A DNA stretch of 64,000 nt from Achromobacter sp. MYb9 (GTDB taxonomy: Bacteria > Pseudomonadota > Gammaproteobacteria > Burkholderiales > Burkholderiaceae_B). Shown one piece after another: positions 38,963 to 56,164 of the stretch. Within the stretch, counting starts at the first letter, position 1; the number at the start of each line of letters is the position of its first letter. The stretch covers positions 62,001-126,000 of the forward strand of contig NZ_PCOQ01000003.1 in assembly GCF_002975275.1 (NCBI RefSeq), written 5' to 3'. The notes beneath the pieces were generated by a model. That model had not been told where the DNA came from. It made no database searches and worked only from the letters and a program-made list of their open reading frames with translations. The position numbers and the translations under genes are program-made.

Positions 38963-39679
38963 TTACTTCGTGGAAGGCCAGCGTCCGCCCAGGGCGCGGG
39001 TGGCATCCGCCGCGGCTTCCTGCACCAGCTTGGCCATCTTCTTGACGGCGGCCGGCGAGTAGCGTTCTTTGGGGCCCGACAACGATATGGCGCCGCAGAT
39101 GTCGCCATCCGGGCCGAACACCGGGCTGGCCACGGCCGCGCAGTTGGGGTCGCGTTCGCCCATCGACGTCAGCATCAGGCCGATCTCGGCCGGCGACTTG
39201 CCATCGACCAGGTAGGCGGTCAGCAGCCTGCCGGCGGCGCCCTTGTCAAGCGGCAGCAGGTCGCCGACGCGGATACGGTCCAGCGTGGAATGGTGTGAGT
39301 CCACGCGCAGCACGCAGGCGCGAGAGGTCGCGTCATGGTAGACGTGGAACGACGCGCTTTCCGTGCCTTTGTCGACCAGGCCTTGCAGCAGCGGCAGGAT
39401 GGTTTCGGTCAGGCGGTAGGTGGCTTCGTACGCGCGCCCCAGGTGATGCGCGTAGGGCCCCAGGGAATAGCGGCCATCGGCGCGGCGCACCACCAGCGCC
39501 ACTTTTTCAAGCGAAGCAATAAGCCGCAAGAGCGTGCTCTTGTAGAACCCCGTGGCCCGGGAAAGGTCCGCAAGCGTGATGGGCTCGGTGCGTTCTGCAA
39601 CGGCCCCGACGATGGTCAGGGCGCGTTCGACGGCGGCGACGCCGTCAGTGGAATTGTCCTGAGTAGGGGTGCGACTCAT
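38963..39679 (-). CDS. IclR-family regulator, likely controller of the 39-59 kb catabolic regulon
   Basis: 238 residues. The winged HTH is VAAVERALTIVGAVAERTEP, then LSRATGFYKSTLLRLIASLE. The effector domain includes LVDKGTESASFHVYHD, LLPLDKGAAGRLLTAY and VFGPDGDICGAISLSGPKER. It is the last gene of the minus-strand operon with the aldehyde dehydrogenase and HIBADH-like genes. Two promoters in the cluster carry the same CGTTC-N9-GAACG palindrome, a suitable target for an IclR dimer or tetramer, so this protein is the best candidate for the shared regulator. That link is inferred. Confidence 0.88.
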   Translation of the reverse strand: MSRTPTQDNSTDGVAAVERALTIVGAVAERTEPITLADLSRATGFYKSTLLRLIASLEKVALVVRRADGRYSLGPYAHHLGRAYEATYRLTETILPLLQGLVDKGTESASFHVYHDATSRACVLRVDSHHSTLDRIRVGDLLPLDKGAAGRLLTAYLVDGKSPAEIGLMLTSMGERDPNCAAVASPVFGPDGDICGAISLSGPKERYSPAAVKKMAKLVQEAAADATRALGGRWPSTK

Positions 39680-40593: not shown

Positions 40594-40663
40594 AGGGATA
40601 GTCTCCGAAGAAAGGGGGCCGTCGTTGCGGCCCTGGAAAGAATGCGAACGGAACGCCTTCGGC

Positions 40664-42118
40664 TTACATGCCGAAGTAGATGCCCTTGGATTGTTGATAC
40701 AGGCGCAGCCCGCTGACACCTTTTTCGCGGCCGATGCCGCTTTGCTTGAAGCCGCCGAACGGGGTGGATATCGACAATTGCTTATAGGTGTTGATCCATA
40801 CGCTGCCGGCTTCCAGGCGCTTGGCCACGCGCCACGCGCGCCGGTAGTCCGCCGTCCAGACGCCGGATGCCAGGCCGTAGACGCTGTCGTTGGCCTGGTC
40901 GATCAAATCGTCTTCGTCGTCGAAGGTCAGCGCGCACAGGACCGGGCCGAAGATTTCTTCGCGCACCACGTGCGCATCGCGTGCCAATCCGCCCAGGATG
41001 GTGGGCCGGTAGAACGCGCCTGCTTGCAGCGCGTCGTCGTCAGGCCGCTGCGCGCCTAGTAGGACTTGCGCGCCGTCGCGCTTGGCGGATTCGACCATGC
41101 CTTCGATCTTGTCGCGGTGGCCGAACGATGCGATCGGGCCCATCTGGGCGCCGGCCGCATCGGGCAGGTTCACATTGAGCCGTGCGGCGCGCGCCACCAG
41201 TTTTTCGATGAACGAGGCCGCGATGCCGCGCTGCACGTAAAGCCGAGAACCCGCCACGCACGACTGCCCGCTGCCTTCGAAAATGCCGCCGATCACGCCC
41301 TCTATCGCCGCGTCCTGGTCTGCGTCATCGAACACGATATGCGGCGACTTGCCGCCCAGTTCCAGCGCGACGGGCATCAGCTTTTCGGCAGCGGCGTGGG
41401 CGATGGCGCGGCCGCTGGCGGTGCCGCCGGTGAACGACACCATGCGTACACCCGGATGTTCCACCAGGCGGCGGCCCACGGTGGCGCCCAGGCCGGTGAC
41501 CACGTTCAGGATGCCAGGCGGCAAGCCGGCTTCCAGCGCGATGCGGCCCAGCACCAGCGCGGGTGACGAGGTCACCTCGGAAGGCTTCAAGATCACGGCG
41601 TTGCCAGCGGCCAGCGCGGGGGCGACCTTCTGCGCTTCCATCGTCAGCGGCGAGTTCCACGGCGTGATCGCCACGACGACGCCATAGGGTTCGTAGTGCG
41701 TCATCGACAGGTAGTTGCCGCGCGCCGGCGTAACCTCGGCGCCCAGCGTTTCGCAAACGCCCGCGTAGTACCGGAAAGTCGCCGCCGCACTGGCGACCTG
41801 CGTCTTGCATTCGGCCCAGACCTTGCCGTTTTCGATCATCTGCAAACGTGCCAGCAGATCCGCATGTTGCTCGATGCCGTCGGCCATTCGACGCAGGATC
41901 GCGGCGCGCTGGTGCGGCAGCATGTCGCGCCAGGCGGGCTGGCGTTGCGCCTGCCAGGCGGCGTCGACGGCTTGATCCACCTGGGCATCGGATGCCGCAC
42001 TGACCAAATAATTTCGCGCGCCGGTGGCGGGGTTGATGGACGCAAACGCGGCGTCTTGCTGGGCGACCCATTCACCGCCGATCAGCATGGATTTAAGGGT
42101 TTCCGATGATTCGGACAT
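40664..42118 (-). CDS. NAD(P)-dependent aldehyde dehydrogenase
   Basis: 484 residues from ATG 42118. The open frame extends upstream, but that part has no homology and crosses the promoter. Catalytic residues are Glu in VALELGGKSPHIVFDDAD and Cys in FEGSGQSCVAGSRLYV. Asn is in VVAITPWNSPLTMEAQKVAP and the NAD-binding region is GLGATVGRRLVEHPGVRMVS. It is first in the minus-strand operon (ALDH, HIBADH-like, IclR), divergent from the Bug-carboxylase operon across a promoter with the regulon palindrome. It oxidises an aldehyde to an acid that could then enter CoA activation. Confidence 0.92.
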   Translation of the reverse strand: MSESSETLKSMLIGGEWVAQQDAAFASINPATGARNYLVSAASDAQVDQAVDAAWQAQRQPAWRDMLPHQRAAILRRMADGIEQHADLLARLQMIENGKVWAECKTQVASAAATFRYYAGVCETLGAEVTPARGNYLSMTHYEPYGVVVAITPWNSPLTMEAQKVAPALAAGNAVILKPSEVTSSPALVLGRIALEAGLPPGILNVVTGLGATVGRRLVEHPGVRMVSFTGGTASGRAIAHAAAEKLMPVALELGGKSPHIVFDDADQDAAIEGVIGGIFEGSGQSCVAGSRLYVQRGIAASFIEKLVARAARLNVNLPDAAGAQMGPIASFGHRDKIEGMVESAKRDGAQVLLGAQRPDDDALQAGAFYRPTILGGLARDAHVVREEIFGPVLCALTFDDEDDLIDQANDSVYGLASGVWTADYRRAWRVAKRLEAGSVWINTYKQLSISTPFGGFKQSGIGREKGVSGLRLYQQSKGIYFGM

Positions 42119-42184
42119 GACGTGATGTTCCTCTCTTGATGGGATCTTTGGCGCGGCCGCCGGCAGCCTGCATGCATTTACTCG

Positions 42185-42213
42185 TTGACAGTCTGCGGCC
42201 GAAAAAATATAAA
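42185..42213 (+). promoter_or_regulatory. Sigma-70-like promoter of the main catabolic operon
   Basis: A TTGACA -35 box (42185-42190), 17-bp spacer and TATAAA -10 box (42208-42213) form a near-consensus promoter about 75 bp before the first Bug gene. The CGTTC-N9-GAACG element begins 11 bp after the -10, so a bound regulator would cover the transcription start. Confidence 0.75.
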
Positions 42214-42223
42214 ATAGAATAAG

Positions 42224-42242
42224 CGTTCTGTCTACAGGAACG
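42224..42242. promoter_or_regulatory. Regulon operator CGTTC-N9-GAACG, copy 1
   Basis: A perfect inverted repeat, CGTTC (42224-42228) and GAACG (42238-42242), within a longer string (AGAATA, two bases, CGTTCTG) that recurs at 52782-52800 upstream of the third operon. Its position at +1 suggests repression. Confidence 0.65.
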
Positions 42243-42288
42243 GTAAGAATAAACAAACCGTCATTCGAAGACAAGAGGAGACAACTCG

Positions 42289-43257
42289 ATGCACCGCAAT
42301 TTCTTGTGCGCGCTGGCATGTGCCACGGCGCTGTTTGCGGGAACGGCGCACGCCGATTCCTATCCATCCAAACCCGTGTCGATGATCGTGCCGTATCCGG
42401 CCGGCGGCGCCACCGACGTGGTGGCGCGCGCCGTCGCCGAAAAGCTGACGCAGTCGTGGGGCCAGTCGGTCATTGTTGAAAACCGCGCGGGGGCGGGCAC
42501 CACCATCGGCGCCAGTTCGGTGGCGCGAGCACCGGGCGATGGCTACACGCTGTTCATGACCACGTCCGCCCACACGATCAGCGGCCATCTGTACAGCAAG
42601 CTGAACTACGACCCGGTCAAGGACTTTGCGCCCATCACGCTGGTCACCAAGGTGCCGCTGGTGCTGGTGGTCAACCCCGCAATCCCCGCCAAGACGTTGC
42701 AGGAATTCCTGGCCTACCTGAAACAAAACAGCGGGTCGGTGAACTTTGCGTCCCCGGGCAACGGCACCGCGCAGCACCTTAGCGGTGAGCTGTTCAAGAT
42801 CGCCACGCAGTCGGGCATCACCCATGTGCCTTACCGGGGCGATGCGCCGGCCTTTACGGACCTGGCGGGCGGACAGGTGCAAATGATGCTGGCCACGATT
42901 ACGTCGGCGCTGCCGTTGATCGAGTCCGGCAAGTTGCGCGCGCTGGCCGTGGCCAACGGCACGCGCGTGCAGGCGCTGCGCAACGTGCCGACCTTTGCGG
43001 AAGCAGGCATGCCCGGCTTCGAGGCCGCGACGTGGTTTGGCTTGCTTGCACCGGCGTCACTGCCGCCGGCGCAAGCGCAACGCATCTATGAAGACGTGTC
43101 GAAGATCGTGGCCACGCCCGCGATGCAGGCGCGTATCGAAAGCTTGGGCGGGGAAGTCGTCAACAGCACCCCGCAGGCCTTCGCCGCCTTCATGTCGAGC
43201 GAACAGGAGAAGTGGGGGCGGGCCGTCAAGGCGTCCGGCGCCGTCGCTGCGCAGTAA
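42289..43257 (+). CDS. Bug-type periplasmic solute-binding protein, catabolic cluster
   Basis: 322 residues with a signal peptide (NFLCALACATALFAGTAHAD). Signatures: YPSKPVSMIVPYPAGGATDV, VENRAGAGTTIGASSVARA, LNYDPVKDFAPITLVTKVPL and HVPYRGDAPAFTDLAGGQVQ. GAGGAGACAACTCG precedes the ATG. It is first of the long plus-strand operon and probably binds the growth substrate in the periplasm. No TctAB partner is encoded here, so it must use a shared carrier or act with a different transporter. Confidence 0.92.
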   Translation: MHRNFLCALACATALFAGTAHADSYPSKPVSMIVPYPAGGATDVVARAVAEKLTQSWGQSVIVENRAGAGTTIGASSVARAPGDGYTLFMTTSAHTISGHLYSKLNYDPVKDFAPITLVTKVPLVLVVNPAIPAKTLQEFLAYLKQNSGSVNFASPGNGTAQHLSGELFKIATQSGITHVPYRGDAPAFTDLAGGQVQMMLATITSALPLIESGKLRALAVANGTRVQALRNVPTFAEAGMPGFEAATWFGLLAPASLPPAQAQRIYEDVSKIVATPAMQARIESLGGEVVNSTPQAFAAFMSSEQEKWGRAVKASGAVAAQ

Positions 43258-43356
43258 TCACAACGCCAGGCATGGAGCCAGGCACAGAAACAGCCCGGAG
43301 CCGCGCGCCGATGCAGCGCAAGGCACGGGTTCAGGCAATCACGGAGGAGACACATC

Positions 43357-44337
43357 ATGACAGTTTCAAAATGGCTGGCAGCAAGCGTGTTCGTGTTGTC
43401 GACGGCGGCGCCCCTCGTGGCAAGCGCCGCTGATTATCCCAATGCGCCGGTGAAGTTCGTCGTGGGCTTCAGCCCCGGCAGCACCATCGATACGGTGGCG
43501 CGCATCGTCGGCGAAGCCTTATCCGCGCGAATGAAGCAAACGTTCGTCGTGGACAATAAGACCGGCGCCAACGGCATGATCGCGGCGCGCGCCGTCGCGC
43601 AGGCCAAGCCGGACGGCTACACCATCCTGGTCAGCAATTCCAGTTCGATCACCGTCAATCCCTTGCTCTACAAGGACCTGCAATACGACCCCTTGAAGGA
43701 TTTTGCCCCGGTGACGACGGTGATGTCGGTGCCGTTCATCCTGACCATCAATGCCGAGAACCCCCGCGTGGCGGGCGTAACCGACGTCAAGTCGCTGGTG
43801 GCGTTGGCCAAGCGCAATCCGAACACAATCAGCTATGGCTCGGCCGGCAACGGCAACCTGATGCACCTGGCGGGCGCGCAGCTTGCCGCCATGTCCGACG
43901 TGCAGATGTTGCATGTGCCGTACCGGGGTGCCGCGCCGATGGAGGCCGGCCTGCTGTCCAAAGAAGTGGACTTCGGCTTTGACACGTTATCCGGCGTGCC
44001 GCTTATCAAAGCCGGCAAGCTGCGCGCGCTGGCCGTGTCGTCCGCCGACCGGTGGCATGACCTGCCGGACGTGCCCGCGGTATCCGAGCTGGGGTATCCC
44101 GGCTTCGACATCTCGTTCTGGGTCGGCATCTTCGCGCCGGCGGGCACGCCGCAGGCCGTGGTGGACCGGCTGAACCGCGAGATCGCAGCCGTAACCCAGG
44201 ACCCCGACGTGCGCGCACGGCTGGCGGCGCAGGGAAATCCGCTGACGCAATCGCCGCAGGCTTTCCGCCAGAAGATCGCGGAAGAGCTCAAGCAAAACGA
44301 AGCGCTGATCAAGCGCGCCAATATCAAGATCGATTGA
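43357..44337 (+). CDS. Bug-type periplasmic solute-binding protein, catabolic cluster
   Basis: 326 residues with a signal peptide (ASVFVLSTAAPLVASAAD). Signatures: YPNAPVKFVVGFSPGSTIDT (the GST variant of the N-terminal motif), VVDNKTGANGMIAARAVA, LQYDPLKDFAPVTTVMSVPF and HVPYRGAAPMEAGLLSKEVD. CGGAGGAGACACATC stands before the ATG. It is the second Bug gene in tandem but clearly different from the first, so the pair may recognise two related compounds or isomers. Confidence 0.92.
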   Translation: MTVSKWLAASVFVLSTAAPLVASAADYPNAPVKFVVGFSPGSTIDTVARIVGEALSARMKQTFVVDNKTGANGMIAARAVAQAKPDGYTILVSNSSSITVNPLLYKDLQYDPLKDFAPVTTVMSVPFILTINAENPRVAGVTDVKSLVALAKRNPNTISYGSAGNGNLMHLAGAQLAAMSDVQMLHVPYRGAAPMEAGLLSKEVDFGFDTLSGVPLIKAGKLRALAVSSADRWHDLPDVPAVSELGYPGFDISFWVGIFAPAGTPQAVVDRLNREIAAVTQDPDVRARLAAQGNPLTQSPQAFRQKIAEELKQNEALIKRANIKID

Positions 44338-44382
44338 TCGGGCGGCGACCGCCGCATCGGCAATGGGCAGGGAGGAGCACAC

Positions 44383-45927
44383 GTGTCCTGGGATAAAGAA
44401 CTGCAAGAACTGGCGCTGCGCAAAGCACTGGCGCAGCGCATGGGGGGCGAGGCCAAGGTGCGCCGGCATCGAGAGGGCGGCAAGCTGCCGGTGCGCGAAC
44501 GTATTGTGCGCATGGTCGATGCGGACTCGTTTCGCGAGGTGGGCGCGCTGACGGGCAGCGGGGAATACGATGCCGAAGGCCGCTTGACGGACCTGACGCC
44601 GTCGAACCTGCTGATCGGCCGCGCCAAGGTCGAAGGGCGTCCGGTGGTAGTGGCCGCCGACGACTTCACGGTGCGTGGCGGCGCTAACGACGGCGCGGTG
44701 GGTGACAAGCTGGTCGAGGCTGAACGCATGGCGCATGACCTGCGGCTGCCGTTATTGCGGCTGGTGGACGGCACGGGCGGCGGCGGGTCGGTGCGCAATA
44801 TCGAGATAAAGGGCCATAGCTTGCTGCCCAAGCTGCGCATGTGGCCCCTGATGGCGCAGAACCTGGCCACGGTGCCGGTAGTGTCGCTGGCCTTGGGGTC
44901 GGTGGCGGGCCTGGGCGCGGCGCGCGTCGCTGCCAGCCACTACGCCGTCATGGTGCGCGAGACCTCGCAGCTGTTCATCGCCGGCCCGCCGGTGGTGGCG
45001 CGCATCGGCCAGACGCTGGACAAGAATGAACTGGGCGGCAGCGACATCCATACTCGCAATGGCGTGGTGGACGACGAAGCCGATTCGGAAGCGGACGCCT
45101 TCGCCATGGCGCGGCGCTTCCTGTCTTATCTGCCGCGCTCGGTGCATGAATTGCCGCCGCGCGCGACCGGCGCCGTCGCCGCGGCCGACCAGGATTGGCT
45201 GCGCGGCGCGATCCCCGCCGACCCGCGCGCGGTCTACAAGATGCGGCCCATCGTGTCGGCCTTGATGGACGAGGGATCGTTCATGGAAATCGGCAAGCGC
45301 TGGGGCAGGGCGGTGATCACGGGCCTGGCCCGGATCGACGGCTGGCCGGTGGCGGTGTTCGCCAGCGACCCCTATCACTACGGCGGCGGCTGGGACGGCC
45401 CGGCGGCCGAAAAATTCACGCGCCTGCTCGACCTGGCCGAGACCTTCCACCTGCCGGTCGTGAATCTGGTGGACGTGCCCGGTTTCCAGATCGGCCTGAA
45501 CGCCGAGAAGGCCGGCGCCATGCGCTACGGCGTGCGCGCCTTGACGGCGGTGGCGCAATCCACCGTGCCCTGGTGCTCGATCATCGTGCGCAAGGCCTTC
45601 GGCGTGGCGGGCGGCGGCCACCAGAGCGCGGGCCGCTTCAATTTCCGCTACGCCTGGCCGTCGGCCCAGTGGGGATCGTTGCCGGTGGAAGGCGGTCTGG
45701 AAGTGGCCTACAAGGCCGAGATCGAAGCCGCCGCCGACCCCGAGGCCAAGATGCGTGAAATTGAAGCGCGCGTGCGCGGCCTGACCTCGCCGTTTCGCAG
45801 CGCCGAAGCTTTCGTGGTGGAAGACATTATCGATCCGGCCAGCACGCGGCAGGTGCTGGAAGAGTTCGTGGAAGTGGTCGCGCCCTTGCGTGAACCCGGT
45901 CCGCGCGCATTTGGGTACCGGCCATGA
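44383..45927 (+). CDS. Acyl-CoA carboxylase, carboxyltransferase (beta) subunit
   Basis: 514 residues from a GTG at 44383 with GGGAGGAG upstream. It has both crotonase-like halves of a propionyl/methylcrotonyl-CoA carboxylase beta subunit. The N-half is LPVRERIVRMVDADSFREVG, AADDFTVRGGANDGAVGDK (for biotin/CoA binding) and FIAGPPVVARIGQTLDKNEL. The C-half is VNLVDVPGFQIGLNAEKAGA and IIVRKAFGVAGGGHQSAGRF. With the biotin carboxylase and carrier that follow it forms a complete carboxylase. Which acyl-CoA it carboxylates is not readable. Confidence 0.9.
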   Translation: MSWDKELQELALRKALAQRMGGEAKVRRHREGGKLPVRERIVRMVDADSFREVGALTGSGEYDAEGRLTDLTPSNLLIGRAKVEGRPVVVAADDFTVRGGANDGAVGDKLVEAERMAHDLRLPLLRLVDGTGGGGSVRNIEIKGHSLLPKLRMWPLMAQNLATVPVVSLALGSVAGLGAARVAASHYAVMVRETSQLFIAGPPVVARIGQTLDKNELGGSDIHTRNGVVDDEADSEADAFAMARRFLSYLPRSVHELPPRATGAVAAADQDWLRGAIPADPRAVYKMRPIVSALMDEGSFMEIGKRWGRAVITGLARIDGWPVAVFASDPYHYGGGWDGPAAEKFTRLLDLAETFHLPVVNLVDVPGFQIGLNAEKAGAMRYGVRALTAVAQSTVPWCSIIVRKAFGVAGGGHQSAGRFNFRYAWPSAQWGSLPVEGGLEVAYKAEIEAAADPEAKMREIEARVRGLTSPFRSAEAFVVEDIIDPASTRQVLEEFVEVVAPLREPGPRAFGYRP

Positions 45928-47309
45928 CGCCGGTTCTGGAGCGCAACATGAAGCGAGTCATCGTCACCAACCGGGGGGCCGTCGCCTGGCGCGTCATCCG
46001 CGCGCTGCGCGCGCTGGGCCTGGAATCGGTCGCCGTCTATTCCGAGGCGGACCGCGATCTTCCTTATCTGCGTGAAGCCGATGTGGCGGTTCCGATTGGT
46101 CCGGCGCCCGCCGTGCAAAGTTACTTGAACCGCGACACGCTGCTGCGCGTGGCGCGCGAGACGGGCGCCGATGCACTGCATCCCGGTTATGGGTTTCTAT
46201 CCGAAAACGCGGACTTTGCCGAGGCCGTGGAATCGGCCGGCATGATCTTCGTGGGCCCGTCGCCGCGCTGGATCCGAATGCTGGGGCACAAGACGCGGGC
46301 GCGAGATGCGATGCGGGCGTTGGGCATGCCGATGGCCGCCAGCAGTGCCGTATTGGGCGCCGACCTTGACGCGGTGCGCCATGCGGCCGGGGACCTGGGC
46401 TACCCGGTGCTGATCAAACCGGCGTCGGGTGGTGGCGGCATCGGCATGATTCCCCTGCACGGCCCGCAGGATGTGGAACCCGAATGGGCGCGGGCACGGC
46501 AGATCGCGGAACGCAGCTTTGGCGGATCGGACCTGTATCTGGAAAAGCTGCTGGGCAACCCGCGACATGTTGAATTCCAGTTCCTGGCGGACCGCCATGG
46601 GCAAGTGCGCTGCCTGTACGAGCGCGACTGCTCTACGCAGCGTCGGCACCAGAAAGTACTGGAAGAAGCGCCCGCGCCGGGGCTGAACCGGGGCGCGGTG
46701 GCCGACATGGCCGCGAAGCTGGAAGGCATGCTGTCGACGTTGGGATACGACGTGATCGGCACCGTCGAAATGCTGTATACGCCCGAGTCCGGCTTTTCGT
46801 TCCTGGAAATCAATACCCGCCTGCAAGTCGAACACGCCGTGACGGAAGCGGTTACGGGCGTCGACATCGTGGCCGCGCAACTGAAGCTGGCGGCGGGCGA
46901 GCGCATGGACAGCGTGTTGGCGCGGGTGCCGCCCTTGCAGGGGCATGCGCTGGAGGCGCGCGTCTACGCGGAAGACCCTGTGCGCTTCCTGCCATCGCCG
47001 GGCGTGCTGCGAGGCTTTAACCCGCCCGAGTTGCCCGGCGTGCGCGTGGAGACGGGCTACGCACAGGGCTGCCGCGTGTCTAGCCATTACGACCCGATGT
47101 TGGCCAAGGTGATCGCGCATGCCGCCACGCGCGATAAGGCCTTGCTGTTGTTGAGGCAAGCGCTGGCGCAGTTTCACGTGGATGGCGTCAAGACCAACAT
47201 TCCCTTCATTTTGCAGGTACTGGACGACCCGGGCTTTGGCGCGGGCCAGGTGTCCACCGGCATGGTGAGCCGCATTCTGGATGCGCCGCGCGCGGCACAG
47301 GCGGCGTGA
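45924..47309 (+). CDS. Biotin carboxylase subunit of acyl-CoA carboxylase
   Basis: 461 residues, ATGA-overlapped with the carboxyltransferase gene. Biotin carboxylase features: RVIVTNRGAVAWRVIRALRA, ADALHPGYGFLSENADFAEA, the ATP-grasp Gly-rich loop VLIKPASGGGGIGMIPLHGP, HVEFQFLADRHG, RDCSTQRRHQKVLEEAPAPG, and FLEINTRLQVEHAVTEAVTG with catalytic Glu and Arg. It ends without a biotinyl domain, which is supplied by the next gene. The usual N-terminal 'ANRGEIA' reads TNRGAVA, a mild deviation. Confidence 0.93.
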   Translation: MTPVLERNMKRVIVTNRGAVAWRVIRALRALGLESVAVYSEADRDLPYLREADVAVPIGPAPAVQSYLNRDTLLRVARETGADALHPGYGFLSENADFAEAVESAGMIFVGPSPRWIRMLGHKTRARDAMRALGMPMAASSAVLGADLDAVRHAAGDLGYPVLIKPASGGGGIGMIPLHGPQDVEPEWARARQIAERSFGGSDLYLEKLLGNPRHVEFQFLADRHGQVRCLYERDCSTQRRHQKVLEEAPAPGLNRGAVADMAAKLEGMLSTLGYDVIGTVEMLYTPESGFSFLEINTRLQVEHAVTEAVTGVDIVAAQLKLAAGERMDSVLARVPPLQGHALEARVYAEDPVRFLPSPGVLRGFNPPELPGVRVETGYAQGCRVSSHYDPMLAKVIAHAATRDKALLLLRQALAQFHVDGVKTNIPFILQVLDDPGFGAGQVSTGMVSRILDAPRAAQAA

Positions 47310-47382
47310 AGCAGACAAGCGAGCCAGGCGGGTCTGGCAGCCATCGCAGCACGTCCGAACCGAAACAGACAAGGAGACAACA

Positions 47383-47595
47383 ATGTTCAAAGTAGAAACG
47401 CCCGTGGTGGGCCGAGTGGTTGCCGTCAGCGTGCGCCCAGGGCAGCGCGTGGACGCCGGCGATAGCGTGATCAAGGTGGAGTCGATGAAGATGGAAATCC
47501 CCGTCGAAGCCGAACGCGCGGGGATCGTGGCTCGCGTGCTGGTGGGTGAAGGGGACGAGGTGGACGAAGGCCAGGTCGTGGTTGAACTGGAGTAA
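47383..47595 (+). CDS. Minimal biotin carboxyl carrier protein, 70 aa
   Basis: 70 residues with AAGGAGACAACA before the ATG at 47383. It is only a biotinyl domain: hammerhead beta-barrel (VGRVVAVSVRPGQRVDAG) with the biotinylation motif KVESMKMEIPV, Lys36 being the acceptor. It lacks the Ala/Pro-rich linker and N-terminal region of AccB. It serves as the free-standing carrier between the biotin carboxylase and carboxyltransferase encoded just before it. Confidence 0.92.
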   Translation: MFKVETPVVGRVVAVSVRPGQRVDAGDSVIKVESMKMEIPVEAERAGIVARVLVGEGDEVDEGQVVVELE

Positions 47596-47602
47596 CGCCG
47601 CC

Positions 47603-49690
47603 ATGCTGATCCATACGGAACGGACGGAAGCCGGCCAGGTTGCGTTGTTGCGATTGCGCAATCCGCCCGTCAACAGCCTGAGCGCGGCGTCGCGGGCGGA
47701 GCTGCACGCCGCGATCAGCGACGCACTGGCGGACCCGCATGTACGCGCGCTGGTCTTGGCAGGTGACGGGGACTTCTTTTGCTGCGGCGCAGAAATCCGC
47801 GAATTCAATACTCCGATGTCGACGCGCGAACCGACATTGCGGTCTTTGATTGCGTTGATTGAAGGCGCGTCCAAGCCCGTGGTCGCCGCGATCCATGGCG
47901 CGGCACTGGGTGGTGGGCTGGAACTGGCGCTGGGTTGTCACTTTCGCGTGGCGCGGGAGGGCGCGTCGTTGGGTCTGCCCGAAGTGAAGCTGGGCGTGCT
48001 GCCCGGCGCGGGTGGGACGCAGCGGCTGCCCAGGATTGTCGGGGTCGAGCGCGCGCTGACGATGATCGCGCAGGGCGACCCGATCGATACCGCAACCGCC
48101 CTGGACTGGGGCCTGCTTGATGCAGTAGTGGCCGACACTCTGCCCGAACGCGCCGCCGCCTATGCGTCGACGGCGGCCGACGCGCCGCTGGCCGGTCGCA
48201 ATGTCGGCGCGCGCCAGGTACCGGCGGTGTCCGATCCAGGCGTGTACGAGCGCGCCCGCGAACAGGCCGCTCGCCGTTATCGGGGCTGCGTGGCGCCGTT
48301 GGCCTGCATCGCCTGCGTGGAAGCCGCCACTCACGGCACGCTTGAAGACGGCTTGGCGGTTGAGCGCGAGCGCTTTCTGGAATTGGTCAACGGCAGCCAG
48401 TCCAAGGCGCAGCGTCACGTGTTCTTTGCCGAACGCGCCGCCGTCAAATTGCCGAAGGACTGGACGGCGACGGCCGCCATCAACACGGTAGGCGTGGTCG
48501 GCGCGGGCACGATGGGCGGCGGAATCGCGATGAGCCTGGCGAACGCCGGGCTTGACGTCGTGCTGGTCGAGCGCGATGCGCAGGCACTGGAACGCGGCTG
48601 GTCGGCGATCCGCAAGAACTACGCCGCGACGGCGGCCAAGGGCAAGCTGACGGCGGCGCAGGTGGACGAACGCCAGGCGCGCATACGCCCGTCGCTGGTG
48701 ATGGACGACCTGCGCAACGCCGATCTGGTGATCGAGGCCGCGTTCGAGGACATGGACGTCAAGCGTCAGATCTTCACCGCGCTGGACGCGGTCTGCAAGC
48801 CGCAGGCCATCCTGGCGTCGAATACGTCGCGCCTGGATATCGACGCGATAGCCGGTTTCACCCGCCGGCCGGTGCAGGTGCTGGGCATGCACTTCTTCAG
48901 CCCGGCCAACGTCATGCGATTGCTGGAAGTGGTCAAGGGCCGCCAGACCGACGGAAACGTGGTCGCCACGGTGTTCCGGCTGGCGCGGCGCATGGGCAAG
49001 CTGCCGGTGCTGGTGGGGGTATGCGACGGGTTTGTCGGCAATCGCATGGTCAGCCCGTACACGCGCGAGGCGCATTTCCTGTTGGAAGAAGGCGCGTCGC
49101 CGTCGCAGGTGGACGGCGCCTTGCAGCGCTTCGGGCTGGCCATGGGGCCGCTGCGCATGGCGGACATGGCGGGCCTGGACATCAGCTGGGCGTTTCGCAA
49201 GCGCACGGCGTCGACGCGGCCCGCGCACCTGCGCTATTCGCGCGTGGCCGACAGCCTGTGCGAACAAGGGCGCTTTGGACAGAAGACGGGCAGCGGCTTT
49301 TATCGCTACGCACCAGGCAGCCGTGAACCGCTGGAAGACCCGCAGGTGCTGGCGTTGATCGAGGCATGCGCGCGCCAGGACGGCATCGTGCGACGCGACA
49401 TCACGGATGAGGAAATCGTGCAGCGCACGATGTACGCGCTGGTCAACGAAGGCGCCCGCATCCTGGAAGAGGGCATCGCCCGCCGCGCGTCCGACATCGA
49501 CGTCATCTACGTCAACGGCTACGGCTTTCCGGCGCATCGGGGTGGGCCGCTGTTCTATGCAGACCAGCAAGGGCTGCCGAATGTGCTGGCCACGATTCGG
49601 GGCTTTCACGACCAACACGGCGAACTCTGGCAGCCGGCACCGTTGTTGGAACGGCTGGTGGCGCAGGGCAAGCGCTTTGCGGACTTGTAA
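47603..49690 (+). CDS. Fused enoyl-CoA hydratase / 3-hydroxyacyl-CoA dehydrogenase
   Basis: 695 residues, domain order as in FadJ and peroxisomal bifunctional enzymes. The N-terminal crotonase domain has AAIHGAALGGGLELALGCHF and GLPEVKLGVLPGAGGTQRLP, so both catalytic Glu residues are present. The NAD-binding domain is VGVVGAGTMGGGIAMSLANA from about residue 296. There are two C-terminal dehydrogenase repeats (GVCDGFVGNRMVSPYTREAH; YVNGYGFPAHRGGPLFYAD) and the catalytic His is in VLGMHFFSPANVMRLLEVV. It hydrates an enoyl-CoA and oxidises the product to a 3-ketoacyl-CoA for cleavage. It starts 7 bp after the carrier-protein gene. Confidence 0.94.
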   Translation: MLIHTERTEAGQVALLRLRNPPVNSLSAASRAELHAAISDALADPHVRALVLAGDGDFFCCGAEIREFNTPMSTREPTLRSLIALIEGASKPVVAAIHGAALGGGLELALGCHFRVAREGASLGLPEVKLGVLPGAGGTQRLPRIVGVERALTMIAQGDPIDTATALDWGLLDAVVADTLPERAAAYASTAADAPLAGRNVGARQVPAVSDPGVYERAREQAARRYRGCVAPLACIACVEAATHGTLEDGLAVERERFLELVNGSQSKAQRHVFFAERAAVKLPKDWTATAAINTVGVVGAGTMGGGIAMSLANAGLDVVLVERDAQALERGWSAIRKNYAATAAKGKLTAAQVDERQARIRPSLVMDDLRNADLVIEAAFEDMDVKRQIFTALDAVCKPQAILASNTSRLDIDAIAGFTRRPVQVLGMHFFSPANVMRLLEVVKGRQTDGNVVATVFRLARRMGKLPVLVGVCDGFVGNRMVSPYTREAHFLLEEGASPSQVDGALQRFGLAMGPLRMADMAGLDISWAFRKRTASTRPAHLRYSRVADSLCEQGRFGQKTGSGFYRYAPGSREPLEDPQVLALIEACARQDGIVRRDITDEEIVQRTMYALVNEGARILEEGIARRASDIDVIYVNGYGFPAHRGGPLFYADQQGLPNVLATIRGFHDQHGELWQPAPLLERLVAQGKRFADL

Positions 49691-49745
49691 ATCAGCGGCC
49701 GGCGCATCGGGCGCGGCGACGCAGAATAAATAGAAGGAGACAGCA

Positions 49746-50144
49746 ATGCACACGGAACAAGCCGAAGCCCCGTCGCGGGGGCCGCAGGAACAGTACTTTG
49801 CCGCGTTGGCCGAAGGGCGCTTCCGGATTCAACGTTGCGCGGCATGCGAGCGGCATCAGTTCTTTCCCCGCACGCTATGCGTGCATTGCGGTGCGACGGA
49901 CCTGGCGTGGATGGACCCCGCTGGCACCGGCACGGTCTATTCGTTCAGCATCGTGCGGCGCAAACCGGAAGCGGGCGGCGACTACAACGTGGCGCTGATC
50001 GATCTGGACGAGGGCGCGCGCATGATGAGCCGGGTGGACGGTGTGCCGCTGGAGCGGCTGCGGATCGGCATGCCGGTCAAGGCGCGGGTGTTGCTGGATG
50101 TGGCCCAGCCGCTGGTGGTGTTCGAGCCGGTGGAGGCCGCATGA
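49746..50144 (+). CDS. DUF35 / OB-fold Zn-ribbon acyl-CoA-associated protein
   Basis: 132 residues with GAAGGAGACAGCA before the ATG. An N-terminal zinc ribbon with Cys31-x2-Cys34 and Cys45-x2-Cys48 (RCAACERHQFFPRTLCVHCG) is followed by an OB-fold (GTGTVYSFSIVRRKP). DUF35 proteins form obligatory complexes with thiolase-like or Ltp2-like partners, and the next gene, overlapped by ATGA, is exactly such a partner. It probably provides the acyl-CoA binding part of the complex. Confidence 0.92.
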   Translation: MHTEQAEAPSRGPQEQYFAALAEGRFRIQRCAACERHQFFPRTLCVHCGATDLAWMDPAGTGTVYSFSIVRRKPEAGGDYNVALIDLDEGARMMSRVDGVPLERLRIGMPVKARVLLDVAQPLVVFEPVEAA

Positions 50145-51316
50145 TGACGCTGGATTCACTGCGCGGGCGGGTCGCCATTGTCGGGGTAGGGCATGCCGGG
50201 CTGGGAGAGGCGCACGGCTACACCGAGATGGAAGTGCTGGCACAGGCTGCGTCACGGGCAGTCGCCGATGCGGGGCTGACGATGCGGGATATCGATGGGC
50301 TGGCCACGTGCAGTTCGTCGGCCACGATGTGGAGCATGCCCGTTGCCGAATACCTGGGCGTGCGGCCGCGCTATATCGAAGCCACGATGCTGGGAGGGTC
50401 CAGTTTTGTCTCGCATCTGCTGCCCTCGGTGATGGCGCTGGCGTCGGGGCAATGCAATGCGGTCCTGGTCTGCTATGGCAGCACGCAGAAGACCGCCACG
50501 TTCGGCCGCAAGGAAGGCGTCAAGGCGCGGACACTGCTGGACCCGCAGCCTTTCGAACATCCGTATTCGCCGCTACAGCCGGTTACGTCCTACGCATTGG
50601 CCGCCGCCCGCCATATGCATCAATACGGCACGACCCGGGGGCAGTTGGCCGAAGTGGCCGTCGCGGCCCGCGCGTGGGCCGCGCTGAACCCCGAGGCCGC
50701 GATGCGCGACCCCCTGTCCATCGATGACGTGCTTCGGTCACGCCCCGTCTCGGATCCATTGACGGTGCGCGATTGCTGCCTGGTGAGCGACGGCGGTGGT
50801 GCCTACGTGATGGTGCGCGCCGACCGAGCCCGCCAGCTGCGGCAGCCCCCCGTGTACGTGTTGGGCAGCGCCACGGCGGTGTGGAACCGCCAGATCTCGT
50901 CCATGGAAGACCTGACCGTGACGGCGGCGGCCGAATCGGGCAAGCGCGCGCTGGTCATGGCCGGCCTGAACGTGGCGGACGTCGACGTGGCCGAGCTTTA
51001 TGACGCCTTCACGATCAACACGCTGCTGTTCCTGGAAGACCTGGGCTTTTGCAAGAAGGGCGAAGGCGGCGCCTTTGTGCAGGGCGGCGGTATTGCGCCC
51101 GGAGGTCGTCTGCCGGTGAACACGAACGGCGGTGGGCTGTCGTGCGTGCATCCTGGCATGTACGGCATCTTCCTGGTCATTGAAGCCGTACGTCAATTGC
51201 GGGCGCAGGCGGGCGAACGCCAGGTGCCGGGCGCCGAGATCGCCCTGGTGCATGGCAACGGCGGCACCTTGTCCAGCCAGTCCACCGCGATCCTGGGCGG
51301 CCCGTCCACGCGCTGA
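50141..51316 (+). CDS. Thiolase-superfamily protein (SCP2/Ltp2-like), partner of DUF35 protein
   Basis: 391 residues with thiolase-fold landmarks: VAIVGVGHAGLGEAHGYT, VYVLGSATAVWN, VDVAELYDAFTINTLLFLED and VNTNGGGLSCVHPGMYGIFL. At the place where biosynthetic and degradative thiolases have the nucleophilic Cys (N-x-C-x-S-G-S), this protein reads ATMLGGSSFVSHL, so the nucleophile appears absent, as in Ltp2-type retro-aldolases. It is translationally coupled to the DUF35 gene. I infer C-C cleavage of a hydroxyacyl- or ketoacyl-CoA, more likely an aldol cleavage than classical thiolysis. Confidence 0.85.
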   Translation: MMTLDSLRGRVAIVGVGHAGLGEAHGYTEMEVLAQAASRAVADAGLTMRDIDGLATCSSSATMWSMPVAEYLGVRPRYIEATMLGGSSFVSHLLPSVMALASGQCNAVLVCYGSTQKTATFGRKEGVKARTLLDPQPFEHPYSPLQPVTSYALAAARHMHQYGTTRGQLAEVAVAARAWAALNPEAAMRDPLSIDDVLRSRPVSDPLTVRDCCLVSDGGGAYVMVRADRARQLRQPPVYVLGSATAVWNRQISSMEDLTVTAAAESGKRALVMAGLNVADVDVAELYDAFTINTLLFLEDLGFCKKGEGGAFVQGGGIAPGGRLPVNTNGGGLSCVHPGMYGIFLVIEAVRQLRAQAGERQVPGAEIALVHGNGGTLSSQSTAILGGPSTR

Positions 51317-51353
51317 CGCGCGGCGACTGCCCCTCCTTAGAAAAGGGACTTCC

Positions 51354-52046
51354 ATGCTGGACAAAACAGTCGATACGCTGGCCGCCGCGGTGGCCGACGT
51401 GCAAGACGGCGCGGTGATCCTGATCGGCGGCTTTGGCGCCTCGGGCGTGCCGACCGATCTGGTCTGCGCGCTGCTTGCGCAAGGCGCGCGCGACCTGACC
51501 ATCGTCAACAACAACGCGGGCAACGGCGAACGCGGCCTGAGCCAACTGGTGCGAGCCGGGCGCGTACGCAAGATGATCTGCTCGTTTGCGCGGTCGTCGG
51601 ATCGCAAGAAGCCGAACGCCGCCGCGTTCGCCGAGGCTTACCACGCGGGCAAGATCGAGCTTGAGTGCGTGCCGCAGGGCACGATGGCCGAGCGCATGCG
51701 CGCGGCAGGCGCGGGGCTGGGGCCGTTTTTCACGCCCACCGCCTATGGCACGCCGCTGGCGCAAGGCAAGGAGACCCGCGTGATAGACGGCGTGGGCTAC
51801 GTGCTGGAAGCCCCGCTGAAAGGTGACTTTGCTTTCGTCAAGGCGCGCACGGCGGACCGCTGGGGAAATCTGGTGTACCGCTACGCCGGGCGCAACTTCG
51901 CGCCGGTGATGTGCATGGCCGCGACCACCACGGTGGCGCAAGTGGACAGCATCGTGGAACTGGGTGGCATCCCGCCCGAACACGTCATGACACCGGGAAT
52001 TTTCGTCAAGCGAGTGGTAAAGGTAGAGGGCAACCATGGCCTATGA
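51354..52046 (+). CDS. 3-oxoacid CoA-transferase subunit A
   Basis: 230 residues. Family I CoA-transferase alpha subunit: GAVILIGGFGASGVPTDLVC (CoA-binding Gly loop), LTIVNNNAGNGERGLSQLV, GKIELECVPQGTMAERMRA and PVMCMAATTTVAQVDSIVEL. It resembles PcaI/CatI/ScoA. It overlaps subunit B by 11 bp. It would activate the free acid with succinyl-CoA or acetyl-CoA, or recycle CoA at the end of the pathway. Confidence 0.93.
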   Translation: MLDKTVDTLAAAVADVQDGAVILIGGFGASGVPTDLVCALLAQGARDLTIVNNNAGNGERGLSQLVRAGRVRKMICSFARSSDRKKPNAAAFAEAYHAGKIELECVPQGTMAERMRAAGAGLGPFFTPTAYGTPLAQGKETRVIDGVGYVLEAPLKGDFAFVKARTADRWGNLVYRYAGRNFAPVMCMAATTTVAQVDSIVELGGIPPEHVMTPGIFVKRVVKVEGNHGL

Positions 52047-52707
52047 AAAGCTGAGCCGACGGCAGATAGCCCGTCTTGTCGCCCTGGACATTCCGGATGG
52101 CGCCACCGTCAACCTGGGCATCGGCATACCGACGCTGGTGTCTGCCTTTTTGCCGGCCGACCGCGATGTGCTCCTGCACACCGAAAACGGCATCGTGGGC
52201 ATGGGGCCAGGCGACCCTGATGCACCGCTGGACCTGGACCTGATCAATGCCAGCAAGGAACCGGTGACGCTATTGCCCGGCGCATCCATCACCGACCACG
52301 TGGTGTCGTTCGCCATGATGCGCGGCGGCCACCTGGATCTGACGGTGCTGGGTGCGTTCCAGGTCTCCGCGCGCGGTGATCTGGCCAACTGGGACACCGG
52401 CGCGCCGGGCACGATTCCGGCGGTGGGCGGCGCGATGGACCTGGTGGCCGGCGCGCGCCAGGTCTACATCACGATGGACCACGTCACCAAGGACGGCCAG
52501 CCCAAGATCGTGCGCGAATGCACCTACCCGCTGACCGGCGCGGGCGTGGTCGACCGCATCTATACCGATCTGGCCATCATCGACGTGCTGTCCGACGCCA
52601 TGCGGGTCAACGCCATGGTGGCGGGATTGCGCTTCGACACCTTGCAGGACCTGACGGATTGCCCGCTGACGCTGGCGGAAGATTGGCGGGTGTTGCCGCC
52701 GGAATAA
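52036..52707 (+). CDS. 3-oxoacid CoA-transferase subunit B
   Basis: 223 residues. Family I beta subunit with VNLGIGIPTLVSAFLP and the catalytic glutamate motif LLHTENGIVGMGPGDPD (E-N-G), then LGAFQVSARGDLANWD and KIVRECTYPLTGAGVVDRI. It resembles PcaJ/CatJ/ScoB. It is the last gene of the main operon. A new promoter with the regulon palindrome follows at 52732. Confidence 0.93.
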   Translation: MAYEKLSRRQIARLVALDIPDGATVNLGIGIPTLVSAFLPADRDVLLHTENGIVGMGPGDPDAPLDLDLINASKEPVTLLPGASITDHVVSFAMMRGGHLDLTVLGAFQVSARGDLANWDTGAPGTIPAVGGAMDLVAGARQVYITMDHVTKDGQPKIVRECTYPLTGAGVVDRIYTDLAIIDVLSDAMRVNAMVAGLRFDTLQDLTDCPLTLAEDWRVLPPE

Positions 52708-52731
52708 CGTTCGGCTCGTACTTTCCCCTTG

Positions 52732-52761
52732 TTGACACGGGGAGTTTTCGATACTTAGAAT
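52732..52761 (+). promoter_or_regulatory. Promoter of the third catabolic operon
   Basis: TTGACA (52732-52737), an 18-bp spacer and TAGAAT (52756-52761) lie about 60-90 bp before the SCP2-like gene. The regulon palindrome starts 21 bp after the -10 box. The architecture parallels the 42185 promoter. Confidence 0.6.
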
Positions 52762-52781
52762 GTTCTTATAGCAAGAATAGA

Positions 52782-52800
52782 CGTTCTGCACATAAGAACG
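52782..52800. promoter_or_regulatory. Regulon operator CGTTC-N9-GAACG, copy 2
   Basis: CGTTC (52782-52786) and GAACG (52796-52800) repeat copy 1 at 42224-42242. The surrounding 29 bp agree at about 20 positions, including a shared AGAATA before the palindrome. An additional inverted repeat TTCTT-N5-AAGAA lies just upstream at 52763-52777. Confidence 0.65.
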
Positions 52801-52819: not shown

Positions 52820-53215
52820 ATGGAAAACCACGCTATGCCAACGCAAGACGCGTCGGACGCGCAGCTTGCGCATCGATTCCGAAGCCGTGCGCTGTTGTTC
52901 TCGCGGCCGCGCCAGGTCGACATGGACCTGCTGCTGCGGGTCGGCGACGCGCCGGTGCTTATCTGCATCCGTGACGGGCGTGTCATGACCGCCGATGCAC
53001 CTGGCGCGCCGCTGCCTTCCTGCGACGTATCGCTGCGCGCAACTGCCGCCGCCTGGTCGCGCTTCTGGCAAGCCGTGCCGGACGCGGGCTGGCATGACAT
53101 CTTTGCGCTGAGCAAGCGCGGCGAGCTTTCTATCGAAGGCAACCTGCAACCCTTGATGGCGCACTTGCAGTTCGTCAAGGACCTGTTGGCTACCGGCCGC
53201 AAGGTGCAAGCATGA
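52820..53215 (+). CDS. SCP2-like sterol-carrier-domain protein
   Basis: 131 residues with GGGAAGAGACA before the ATG. The layout RDGRVMTADAPGAPLPSCDV, then AAWSRFWQAVPDAGWHDIFA and SIEGNLQPLMAHLQFVKDLL, matches SCP2-fold proteins that carry or bind hydrophobic acyl groups. It overlaps the hydrolase gene by ATGA, so the two may act together on a lipophilic substrate. No signal peptide. Confidence 0.7.
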   Translation: MENHAMPTQDASDAQLAHRFRSRALLFSRPRQVDMDLLLRVGDAPVLICIRDGRVMTADAPGAPLPSCDVSLRATAAAWSRFWQAVPDAGWHDIFALSKRGELSIEGNLQPLMAHLQFVKDLLATGRKVQA

Positions 53216-54060
53216 ACGCCGCGCTGGAACCTATCGTTGGCCGTTACCTGACCGTCGACATCGGCGGCAAGCCCTGCCGCGTCTACTTCGAAGAAGCGGG
53301 CGAGGGCATTCCACTGGTCTGCCTGCATACCGCGGGCGCCGACAGCCGCCAGTACCGCCACATGATGTGCGATGCCGACATCACGTCGCGCTATCGCGTC
53401 ATTGCCTTTGACATGCCATGGCACGGCAAGTCCTACCCGCCACCCGGCTGGCAGGACGAGGAATACCGCTTGTCCACCGAACGCTATGTGGAAACCGTGA
53501 TGGCGTTCTGCCAGGCGTTGGCGCTGGATCGCCCCGCGCTGATCGGCTGCTCGATCGGCGGGCGCATCGTGTTGCAGCTGGCGCATCAGCACGCCGACCA
53601 TTTTCGCGCCTTGATCGGCGTGGAAGCGGCTGATTTCCAGCAGCCCTGGTACGACACCTCGTGGCTGCATCGCGGTGACGTCCATGGCGGCGAGGTCTGC
53701 GCCGCCTTGGTGTCCGGGCTGGTCGCGCCGCAGTCGCCAGCTGTCCATCGCCACGAAACCTTGTGGCAATACATGCAGGGCGGCCCCGGCGTGTTTCGCG
53801 GCGACCTGTATTTCTACCGCGTGGACGGCGATTTGCGGGGTCGGCTGGACGGCATACGCACCGACCGTTGTCCGCTGTTTTTGTTAACGGGGGAATACGA
53901 CTTTTCGTGCACGCCCGAAGACACGTTGCGCACCGCCGCCGGCATCCCCGGCGCCCAGGTCACCATCATGCGCGAGTTGGGGCATTTCCCAATGAGCGAA
54001 AACCCACAGCAGTTTCGCGGCTACATCATGCCGGTGCTGGACGCCATCGCAGGCCTATAG
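53212..54060 (+). CDS. Alpha/beta-fold hydrolase
   Basis: 282 residues. Nucleophile elbow PALIGCSIGGRIVLQLAHQ (G-C-S-I-G-G), acid segment LTGEYDFSCTPEDT and catalytic His in MRELGHFPMSENPQQFR. The oxyanion region is IPLVCLHTAGADSRQYRHM. It hydrolyses an ester, lactone or C-C bond. The coupling to an SCP2-like protein and the downstream importer suggests that it may open or de-esterify the imported substrate. No signal peptide. Confidence 0.88.
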   Translation: MNAALEPIVGRYLTVDIGGKPCRVYFEEAGEGIPLVCLHTAGADSRQYRHMMCDADITSRYRVIAFDMPWHGKSYPPPGWQDEEYRLSTERYVETVMAFCQALALDRPALIGCSIGGRIVLQLAHQHADHFRALIGVEAADFQQPWYDTSWLHRGDVHGGEVCAALVSGLVAPQSPAVHRHETLWQYMQGGPGVFRGDLYFYRVDGDLRGRLDGIRTDRCPLFLLTGEYDFSCTPEDTLRTAAGIPGAQVTIMRELGHFPMSENPQQFRGYIMPVLDAIAGL

Positions 54061-54109
54061 CGCGGCATCAACGACGGGCAGGCACTGCCCGCGATCCACA
54101 GGAGGCATC

Positions 54110-55273
54110 ATGCGTTATCCGATCATTCTGGCCGGCATCTTCGCCCTGGCCGCAGTTCCCGCCGTGCAGGCGCAAGAGACGCTGAAACTTGGCGCGCTGG
54201 TCACGCTGTCCGGCGCGGGCGCCGCCTGGGGGCAGGGGATGAAGAACGCCGCCGAGATCGCGGCGGATCAGGTGAACGAGGCGGGCGGGCTGGACGTTGG
54301 CGGCAAGAAGTACCGGGTCCAGGTGGTGGCCTATGACGACAAGTACCAGGCTAACGAAGCCGTCACCGTGGCCAACCGCCTGGTGTTCGAGGACAAGGTG
54401 CGCTACGTGATTGGCCCGGTCGGATCCGCGCCTGTGCTGGCGATCCAACCCATGACGGAAAAGAACAAGGTGATCGTGATGACCTTGGGCTTTACCGCCA
54501 AGGCGCTGGCCGCGGACAAGCCCTTTACCTTCCGCCCGAACGTGACGACCGCCGAGGTGTCGCAGCCGCAGATCGACTGGTTGGTCAAGTCGCAAGGCCT
54601 GCGCAAAGTGGGCGCGCTGTTTCCCAACGACGAAACCGGGCAGCAGATCGCGCTGGATCTGGAAGCTGCATACAAGAAGGCGGGCGCGGCCTTGTCCGTC
54701 AAGGAGTTCTTCGAACGCGACCGGGTCGATTTCGTGCCCGTGTTGACGCGCATGATGGCGCGCGGCATCGACGCCATCGAACTGGACGGCAATTCGCCCA
54801 CCACGGCCGGGCTGATCGTCAAGCAGGCGCGCGAACTCGGGTTTGAAGGGCGCATCGTGCGCACCGGCGGCCCCGCCACCCAAGAAATCGTCAACGTGGC
54901 CGGCAAGACGGCCACCGAGGGCATGTTCGTCCATACACCGATTGATCCAGACTTGCCCGCCACCAAGGCCTACGCCGAACGCTACGCCGCCAAGTACAAG
55001 CACGCCATGAACGGCTTCAGCCCCGCCTTTTATGACGGCACCAACATGCTGTTTGAAGCCATGCGCCGCGCCGGCACGGTGGAAGACACGGACCGCGTGC
55101 GTGTCGAACTGGAAAAGCTGGAAGGTTTTGACGGATCCCTGGGCAAGCTTAGCTGGACAGGCAAAGCCATGTACGGCATCAACCACCAGTTGAACGCGCC
55201 GTTCTACGTGGCCGAGGTCAAGGATGGCCGCGAGGTGATCCGCGCGCGCTGCACCGTCGAGGGATGCCGCTAG
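54110..55273 (+). CDS. Branched-chain amino acid-type ABC transporter substrate-binding protein
   Basis: 387 residues with a signal peptide (PIILAGIFALAAVPAVQAQE) and CAGGAGGC before the ATG. It is a class I binding protein of the LivK/AmiC type: LKLGALVTLSGAGAAWGQGM, KNAAEIAADQVNEAGG, VIGPVGSAPVLAIQPMTEKN and GLIVKQARELGFEGRIVRTG. In catabolic clusters such proteins often bind aromatic or other organic acids instead of amino acids. It is followed by the complete set of permeases and ATPases. Confidence 0.92.
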   Translation: MRYPIILAGIFALAAVPAVQAQETLKLGALVTLSGAGAAWGQGMKNAAEIAADQVNEAGGLDVGGKKYRVQVVAYDDKYQANEAVTVANRLVFEDKVRYVIGPVGSAPVLAIQPMTEKNKVIVMTLGFTAKALAADKPFTFRPNVTTAEVSQPQIDWLVKSQGLRKVGALFPNDETGQQIALDLEAAYKKAGAALSVKEFFERDRVDFVPVLTRMMARGIDAIELDGNSPTTAGLIVKQARELGFEGRIVRTGGPATQEIVNVAGKTATEGMFVHTPIDPDLPATKAYAERYAAKYKHAMNGFSPAFYDGTNMLFEAMRRAGTVEDTDRVRVELEKLEGFDGSLGKLSWTGKAMYGINHQLNAPFYVAEVKDGREVIRARCTVEGCR

Positions 55274-55291
55274 CGCGGCGGGGGATGCCAC

Positions 55292-56161
<870 letters not shown>

Positions 56162-56164
56162 GCC

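Follow-up and report, generated by a model that had tools for sequence, protein, structure and literature searches.

A catabolic gene cluster with an IclR regulator and two palindromic sites

The stretch of DNA analysed here, 64,000 nucleotides of Achromobacter sp. MYb9 (contig NZ_PCOQ01000003.1, positions 62,001 to 126,000; hereafter the window), contains a catabolic gene cluster with two palindromic sites, A and B, at the heads of its operons, and encodes within this cluster an IclR-family regulator that probably binds both. The regulator (38963-39679, minus strand) has the domains HTH_IclR (PF09339, 34.5 bits, cut-off 22) and IclR_C (PF01614, 40.7 bits, cut-off 24), and its gene is the distal one of a transcription unit headed by an aldehyde dehydrogenase (ALDH; 40664-42118, minus strand). 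The ALDH start at 42118 was set by orthologs, the open frame itself extending to 42367. Between the two lies a beta-hydroxyacid dehydrogenase resembling 3-hydroxyisobutyrate dehydrogenase (39697-40719, minus strand), whose true start is probably further in, since ortholog alignments begin at residues 4-37. On the plus strand the cluster continues with two Bug/TctC solute receptors, Bug1 (42289-43257) and Bug2 (43357-44337), acyl-CoA-carboxylase-like genes (44383-47595, namely a carboxyltransferase at 44383-45927, a biotin carboxylase at 45924-47309 and a small open reading frame, ORF), and genes for a FadB-like protein, an OB-fold protein and a thiolase, and CoA-transferase subunits (47546-52707). 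The second predicted target operon (52820-59437, plus strand) encodes an SCP2-like ORF, an alpha/beta hydrolase, a Liv ABC transporter and a lactonase-like protein of the metallo-beta-lactamase fold.

The conserved unit of the two sites

A preliminary description of this DNA had noted the palindrome CGTTC-N9-GAACG at 42224-42242 and 52782-52800. These are indeed its only copies in the window, for which 100 dinucleotide shuffles gave a mean of 0.11 copies and never two, and the flanks reported to be shared, AGAATA on the left and CGTTCTG, are present at both sites. Over the whole 6.68-Mb genome the 19-mer as written turned out not to be distinctive, occurring at 22 places versus 15 for our control pattern, the same motif read backwards. 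The true conserved unit is longer and consists of three boxes, AGAAY-N4-GTTCT-N7-RGAAC, in which a third box, AGAAY, lies outside the palindrome at a fixed N4 spacing and the boxes alternate in direction. Predicted operator A (42216-42242, plus strand) is made up of box 1, AGAAT (42216-42220), and the palindrome CGTTCTGTCTACAGGAACG (42224-42242). Site B comprises two palindromes in tandem, at 52762-52778 and 52783-52799, with a centre-to-centre distance of 21 bp, the right half of the first doubling as box 1 of the second. The first of these, GTTCTTATAGCAAGAAT (plus strand), had been overlooked previously; the second is contained in the 19-mer CGTTCTGCACATAAGAACG (52782-52800, plus strand).

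We aligned the upstream regions of orthologous Achromobacter clusters, window included (13 Bug1 rows and 12 SCP2-like rows). Operator A was kept in all 13 Bug1 promoters, as was the exact 19-mer, whereas only 7 of the 12 SCP2-like promoters carried the exact 19-mer, so that the conservation of the palindrome in its original form held fully at the first site and only in part at the second. At site B it was the boxes that persisted: both half-sites of the first palindrome and GTTCT of the second were invariant in the 12 aligned sequences, and AGAAC was invariant bar one column. Invariant columns mostly coincided with boxes, these being AGAAT, CGTTCTG and GGAAC at site A, and GTTCT, AAGAAT, GTTCT and most of AAGAAC at site B.

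A strict form of the unit, RGAAT-N3-YGTTCT-N7-RGAAC, made by hand with prior knowledge of the Achromobacter alignments and of the sites in relatives, had exactly two matches in the 6.68-Mb genome (G000), both of them the sites described here, and its control had none. Likewise, a profile built from 52 sites (R1) reached E < 0.01 in this genome only at sites A and B, its third-best match (E 8.8) being on contig C7, in front of a different IclR gene. Since the sites that trained R1 came from IclR-carrying loci, matches of this profile in IclR carriers are not an independent test. An unrestricted count of spaced dyads in 29 mostly Alcaligenaceae loci ranked GTTCT-N7-AGAAC second (21 of 29 loci), with one dyad scoring above it and one tying, and GTTCT with other spacers never exceeded 1. 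The same dyad was weak in the Achromobacter set (rank 49, 10 of 12 loci) and in 12 distant loci (rank 160, 4 of 12), and ranked only 1205 (4 of 34 loci) in a set with gammaproteobacterial relatives, for which we therefore claim no conservation.

Co-occurrence of the sites with the in-cluster IclR regulator

Orthologs of the in-cluster IclR, 87-98% identical, were found in 12 other Achromobacter genomes, making 13 of the 43 genus genomes with its own included, and the next match drops to 45%. The strict site was present in all 13 of these genomes (two copies in 11, one in G005 and in G019) versus 1 of the 30 others, and this sole exception, G027 (78% complete), has an 8-kb contig (L120) with part of the cluster and the site. 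We extended the comparison to a family set of 268 genomes, in which an ortholog was defined by at least 59% identity (n = 43; 46 match at an E of 1e-50, three of these at only 43-45%), and to a family pattern, RGAAY-N4-GTTCT-N7-RGAAC, which loosens the strict one further by letting box 1 end in C or T. This pattern had 67 matches over the 268 genomes versus 8 for the backward control, and occurred in 41 of the 43 genomes with an IclR ortholog versus 4 of the 225 without one; R1 at E 0.01 matched 42 of the 43.

Two IclR carriers are without the pattern. The contig of G133 stops partway through the dehydrogenase gene, and in G184 two palindromes lie close to a Bug-type gene, of which one deviates in box 1 and the other in a half-site. 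Among the pattern carriers that lack the ortholog, G058 (L129) has its site upstream of a 69% relative of the lactonase-like gene and G027 is the cluster fragment mentioned above; the other two, G137 and G236, may be chance. The earlier proposal that IclR 38963-39679 is the natural binder is thus supported by comparative genomics, the pattern tracking its ortholog in 268 genomes.

Promoters and predicted targets

As had been described before, each site is preceded by a TTGACA/-10 pair (42185-42190 and 42208-42213; 52732-52737 and 52756-52761). The predicted Bug1 promoter (42185-42213, plus strand) combines this TTGACA with TATAAA at a distance of 17 bp, and TTGACA and GAAAAAATATAAAATAGAAT were found in all 13 aligned rows; the promoter scanner does not list it because it demands a final T in the -10. 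The predicted promoter of the SCP2-like/Liv operon (52732-52761, plus strand; TTGACA, 18 bp, TAGAAT; 11 of 12 matches) was present in all 12 aligned rows. A divergent ALDH promoter is predicted at 42206-42234 on the minus strand (TAGACA at 42234-42229, 17 bp, TATATT at 42211-42206; 10 of 12 matches), being the sole promoter-like scanner match in 42100-42300, and its -35 lies inside operator A. Its -10 (42206-42211) overlaps the predicted Bug1 -10 (42208-42213) on the opposite strand, and 42206-42234 may serve as a promoter in both directions, governed by a single operator. Assuming a transcription start about 7 bp past the -10, the operator A palindrome spans approximately +4 to +22 of the Bug1/carboxylase transcript, and operator B would, on the same assumption, reach from just past the -10 to approximately +30.

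We then scanned the 400 bp upstream of named genes in non-redundant loci for three-box sites, allowing up to 2 mismatches in 15. Duplicates were removed (L040, L041, L043 and L044, equal to L031, L035, L036 and L038, and L042, equal to L121), L051 and L052 were kept instead of L123 and L124, and L063 and L067, with ALDH cut off or absent, were left out. A site was found upstream of 37 of 40 ALDH orthologs (36 perfect) and of 15 of 17 SCP2-like orthologs. Bug2, normally the second gene of its operon, had one in a single case out of 14, namely L059 (same cluster as L136), where Bug1 stands apart and Bug2 has its own upstream region. As a null, 62 of 1500 random 430-bp windows from the same loci reached this level; 60 of these were perfect and hence are probably the real sites, which the null windows include.

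The arrangement of the genes in relatives was informative as well. In G147 (L131) the carboxylase operon lies on a separate contig from IclR and has retained the operator, and L137 has one operator each at the SCP2-like operon, the Bug2/carboxylase operon and the ALDH/Bug1 region. In L062, L064 and L065 the ALDH-Bug1 region contains two oppositely oriented operators, and the site of L068 and of L069 is directed towards ALDH and preceded by an AT-rich, -10-like sequence; these last two arrangements support ALDH, and hence iclR behind it, as a target. For Achromobacter we infer ALDH-side control from the predicted -35 inside site A and from the relatives' ALDH-facing sites. Taken together, comparative genomics argues for the single regulon suggested previously, with sites at operon heads and a pattern that follows the IclR ortholog.

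Sites were also observed at additional genes of relatives. A three-box or near three-box site lies directly before other Bug-type genes (35-43% identical to those of the window) in L132 (13098), L135 (9010) and L142 (8807), and for L130 and L133 the distance from a site to a Bug-type gene is 1.5-2 kb; such sites may represent an extension of the regulon to further receptors. In three alphaproteobacterial loci (L073, 9002; L076, 6334; L081, 9917), palindromes of the same form occur near IclR homologs of 42-51% identity, that of L081 being immediately ahead of the IclR gene itself.

Relation to known IclR operators

For the 181 IclR groups covered by Suvorova and Gelfand (2021), the portion of the article drawn on here describes 17-bp motifs in a GTT-11-AAC frame; three-box sites whose boxes alternate in direction, seen in 32 groups and consistent with PcaU; and, for 94 groups, tandem sites spaced 18-22 nt from centre to centre (PMC8222616). 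Because the frame, the three boxes and the tandem arrangement are all shared, the operators predicted here appear to be a new instance of this known operator class. With the GTT-11-AAC subgroup, whose consensus that portion gives as GTTYCRYW3RYGRAAC, they share the 17-bp length, the outer GTT and AAC and a tandem spacing within 18-22 nt. They resemble the systems of PcaU, PobR and HmgR, as far as these are described there, in the IclR regulator, in a palindrome with an outer direct-repeat half-site and in catabolic targets (PMC8222616), but differ from them in having GTTCT with N7 instead of GTNCG-type half-sites with N5-6, and in gene content. GenR of Corynebacterium glutamicum, for which the same portion lists ATTCC-N7(5)-GGAAT (PMC8222616), is likewise an IclR-family protein with five-base half-sites at N7 spacing, but its half-site letters are different and it serves the 3-hydroxybenzoate/gentisate pathway. 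The regulon itself was not found in print in the literature searched, which excluded the 181-group supplement of PMC8222616.

A proposed repressor and the alternatives

Sites A and B are, in our judgement, likely to be the operators of IclR 38963-39679, acting as a ligand-released repressor of the catabolic cluster. At site B one dimer would bind each palindrome, the 21 bp between them being two helical turns, and at site A binding would cover the start region of the Bug/carboxylase transcript along with the predicted divergent ALDH -35. Without ligand, IclR would block all three promoters, at initiation or escape, and would limit its own synthesis as well, iclR being the last gene of the ALDH operon; a pathway metabolite would act as inducer and release it. 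Binding, repression, self-limitation and a pathway inducer are all steps that we infer from the DNA. Repression is likely because site A directly follows the Bug -10 and overlaps the predicted ALDH -35, and the sites are placed as would suit a repressor that acts by blocking initiation or escape. The analysis thus offers a candidate regulator, operator and target list for a catabolic cluster conserved in Achromobacter, Bordetella and other Alcaligenaceae, and makes predictions testable down to single boxes.

As to the inducer, none of the five PDB sequence matches names a ligand helpful for this case. A comparison can be made with BlcR, which belongs to the IclR family. The blc dehydrogenase is of the iron type, whereas the present cluster encodes one of the 3-hydroxyisobutyrate dehydrogenase type. 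In the part of the source used here, BlcR of Agrobacterium is described as the repressor of blcABC, which encodes an AiiA-type lactonase and the oxidation of a hydroxyacid via a semialdehyde to an acid (PMC3907764), and the lactonase, dehydrogenase and ALDH of the present cluster resemble blcABC in this logic, so described. The target set is much larger here, as it includes a carboxylase, beta-oxidation-like enzymes and both Bug and Liv transport. By this resemblance, our guess is that a lactone or hydroxyacid might be both substrate and inducer.

Several observations weigh against the proposed control by IclR or narrow it. In the target scan, an upstream three-box site was not found at the SCP2-like genes of L055 and L072 and at the ALDH genes of L053, L054 and L071. 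R1 at E 0.01 also matched 9 of the 225 genomes without an IclR ortholog, namely G027 and G058 (the cluster fragments), G130, G059, G076, G128, G166, G214 and G229; for G130, the stretch looked at (L140) has no relative of the window proteins and, on scanning, no three-box site. The Fisher value for co-occurrence, 3e-41, ignores relatedness and overstates independence, because the genomes are related. At positions 5 and 13 the palindrome has T and A/G here, as opposed to C and G in the consensus of the GTT-11-AAC subgroup in the part of the survey used. Finally, PcaU and PobR, users of three-box operators, are activators, and the sign of control is therefore not proven.

This last point bears on the alternative that the same IclR acts through the same sites as a ligand-dependent activator or a dual regulator, in the manner of the PcaU and PobR operators, which we regard as unlikely though worth keeping in view. 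The family does include activators and dual regulators, and three-box operators are known for PcaU, PobR and HmgR, according to the portion of the survey used here (PMC8222616); moreover, operator A lies at and upstream of the predicted ALDH -35. Yet both sites stand at or past the well-formed Bug1 and SCP2-like -10s, a place better suited to blocking. That the sites are bound by a different protein is highly improbable. The nearest candidate, a second IclR (37312-38052), is encoded nearby, and of the 13 genomes that have both the in-cluster IclR and strict sites, 9 carry an ortholog of it (85-100%), or 8 of 12 when its own genome is set aside; over the genus, 27 of 43 genomes match it at an E of 1e-70, its own included. 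It was rejected as the binder, as it is absent from the 12 orthologous regions, its relatives being located elsewhere in other genomes, and fails to track the sites across the genus: no match at this threshold was found in 4 of the 13 genomes (G005, G007, G037 and G039), and it is present at 83-92% in 12 genomes that have neither the in-cluster IclR nor a strict site. An IclR paralog on contig C7, described below, has the same half-sites in tandem palindromes near its own gene, making an overlap in recognition possible; it occurs in 28 of the 43 genus genomes, yet gave no match at an E of 1e-60 in 6 of the 13 site-bearing ones. An unrelated palindrome-binding protein would fall under the same low estimate.

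Two further explanations dispense with a regulator altogether. We reject the reading of the inverted repeats as hairpins or terminators acting in RNA, for which there is next to no likelihood: both sites do lie inside leaders predicted to be transcribed, and one terminator-like match was listed by the scanner at site B, on the minus strand, but the boxes are near-invariant in Achromobacter with no paired variation, the third box is conserved outside the stem, the 21-bp tandem register is fixed at SCP2-like promoters, and sites occur in both orientations relative to ALDH. Equally hard to credit is that the two copies are chance look-alikes. The loose 19-mer is indeed near genome background, with the 22 occurrences versus 15 in the control given above, but for the three-box form chance is refuted by conservation and co-occurrence.

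An IclR paralog and its candidate operators in a different register

On contig C7 (66861-66897; L143 6862-6898), the tandem ATTCTATTAGAAAGAAC-ATT-GTTCTATTAGATAGAAT, which is the third-best R1 match mentioned above, lies beside the IclR paralog, ahead of an HMG-CoA-lyase-like gene. The paralog is 40% identical to the in-cluster IclR, and the half-sites of the palindromes are the same. The tandem with a 3-base gap occurs in 13 of the 43 genus genomes, always within about 250 bp upstream of the paralog. Of the 28 paralog promoters (L147-L174), a tandem is present in 15, in every case of 20 bp, and a single perfect palindrome in 12, with neither in the remaining one; on the side of the in-cluster IclR, a 21-bp tandem was found in 21 of 21 SCP2-like promoters, which had been chosen for a visible site. 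Both regulators are encoded in 7 of the 13 genomes with the in-cluster IclR. It is conceivable, although we hold it doubtful, that the register (21 bp with a box gap of 4 versus 20 bp with a box gap of 3) is what mainly separates the two paralogs in one cell, and the base after GTTCT, mostly G in the in-cluster set versus mostly A in the C7 set, might help in this. If true, register would be a specificity code that lets duplicated regulators diverge without new half-sites; the pair, with its shared half-sites and different register, makes the avoidance of cross-talk directly testable.

Further features of the locus

The small ORF at 47281-47595 (internal ATG at 47383), situated between the biotin carboxylase and FadB-like genes, has a biotin-attachment-like MKM motif and is probably the biotinyl carrier subunit. 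The label SCP2, given to the ORF at 52820-53215 in the preliminary description, has no support from Pfam, in which this ORF matched nothing up to E 1; relatives of it precede Liv genes in many loci. The lactonase-like protein (58619-59437) matches PF00753 and carries HLHYDH, its best NCBIfam model being AiiA at 77 bits, under the model cut-off of 375. Lastly, the sequence TGAAACATGTTCCA at 37306-37319 is near the IclR group 2 consensus and overlaps the start codon of the second IclR (37312-38052), which is divergent from a Bug gene; it is a candidate for a separate autoregulatory site of that regulator.

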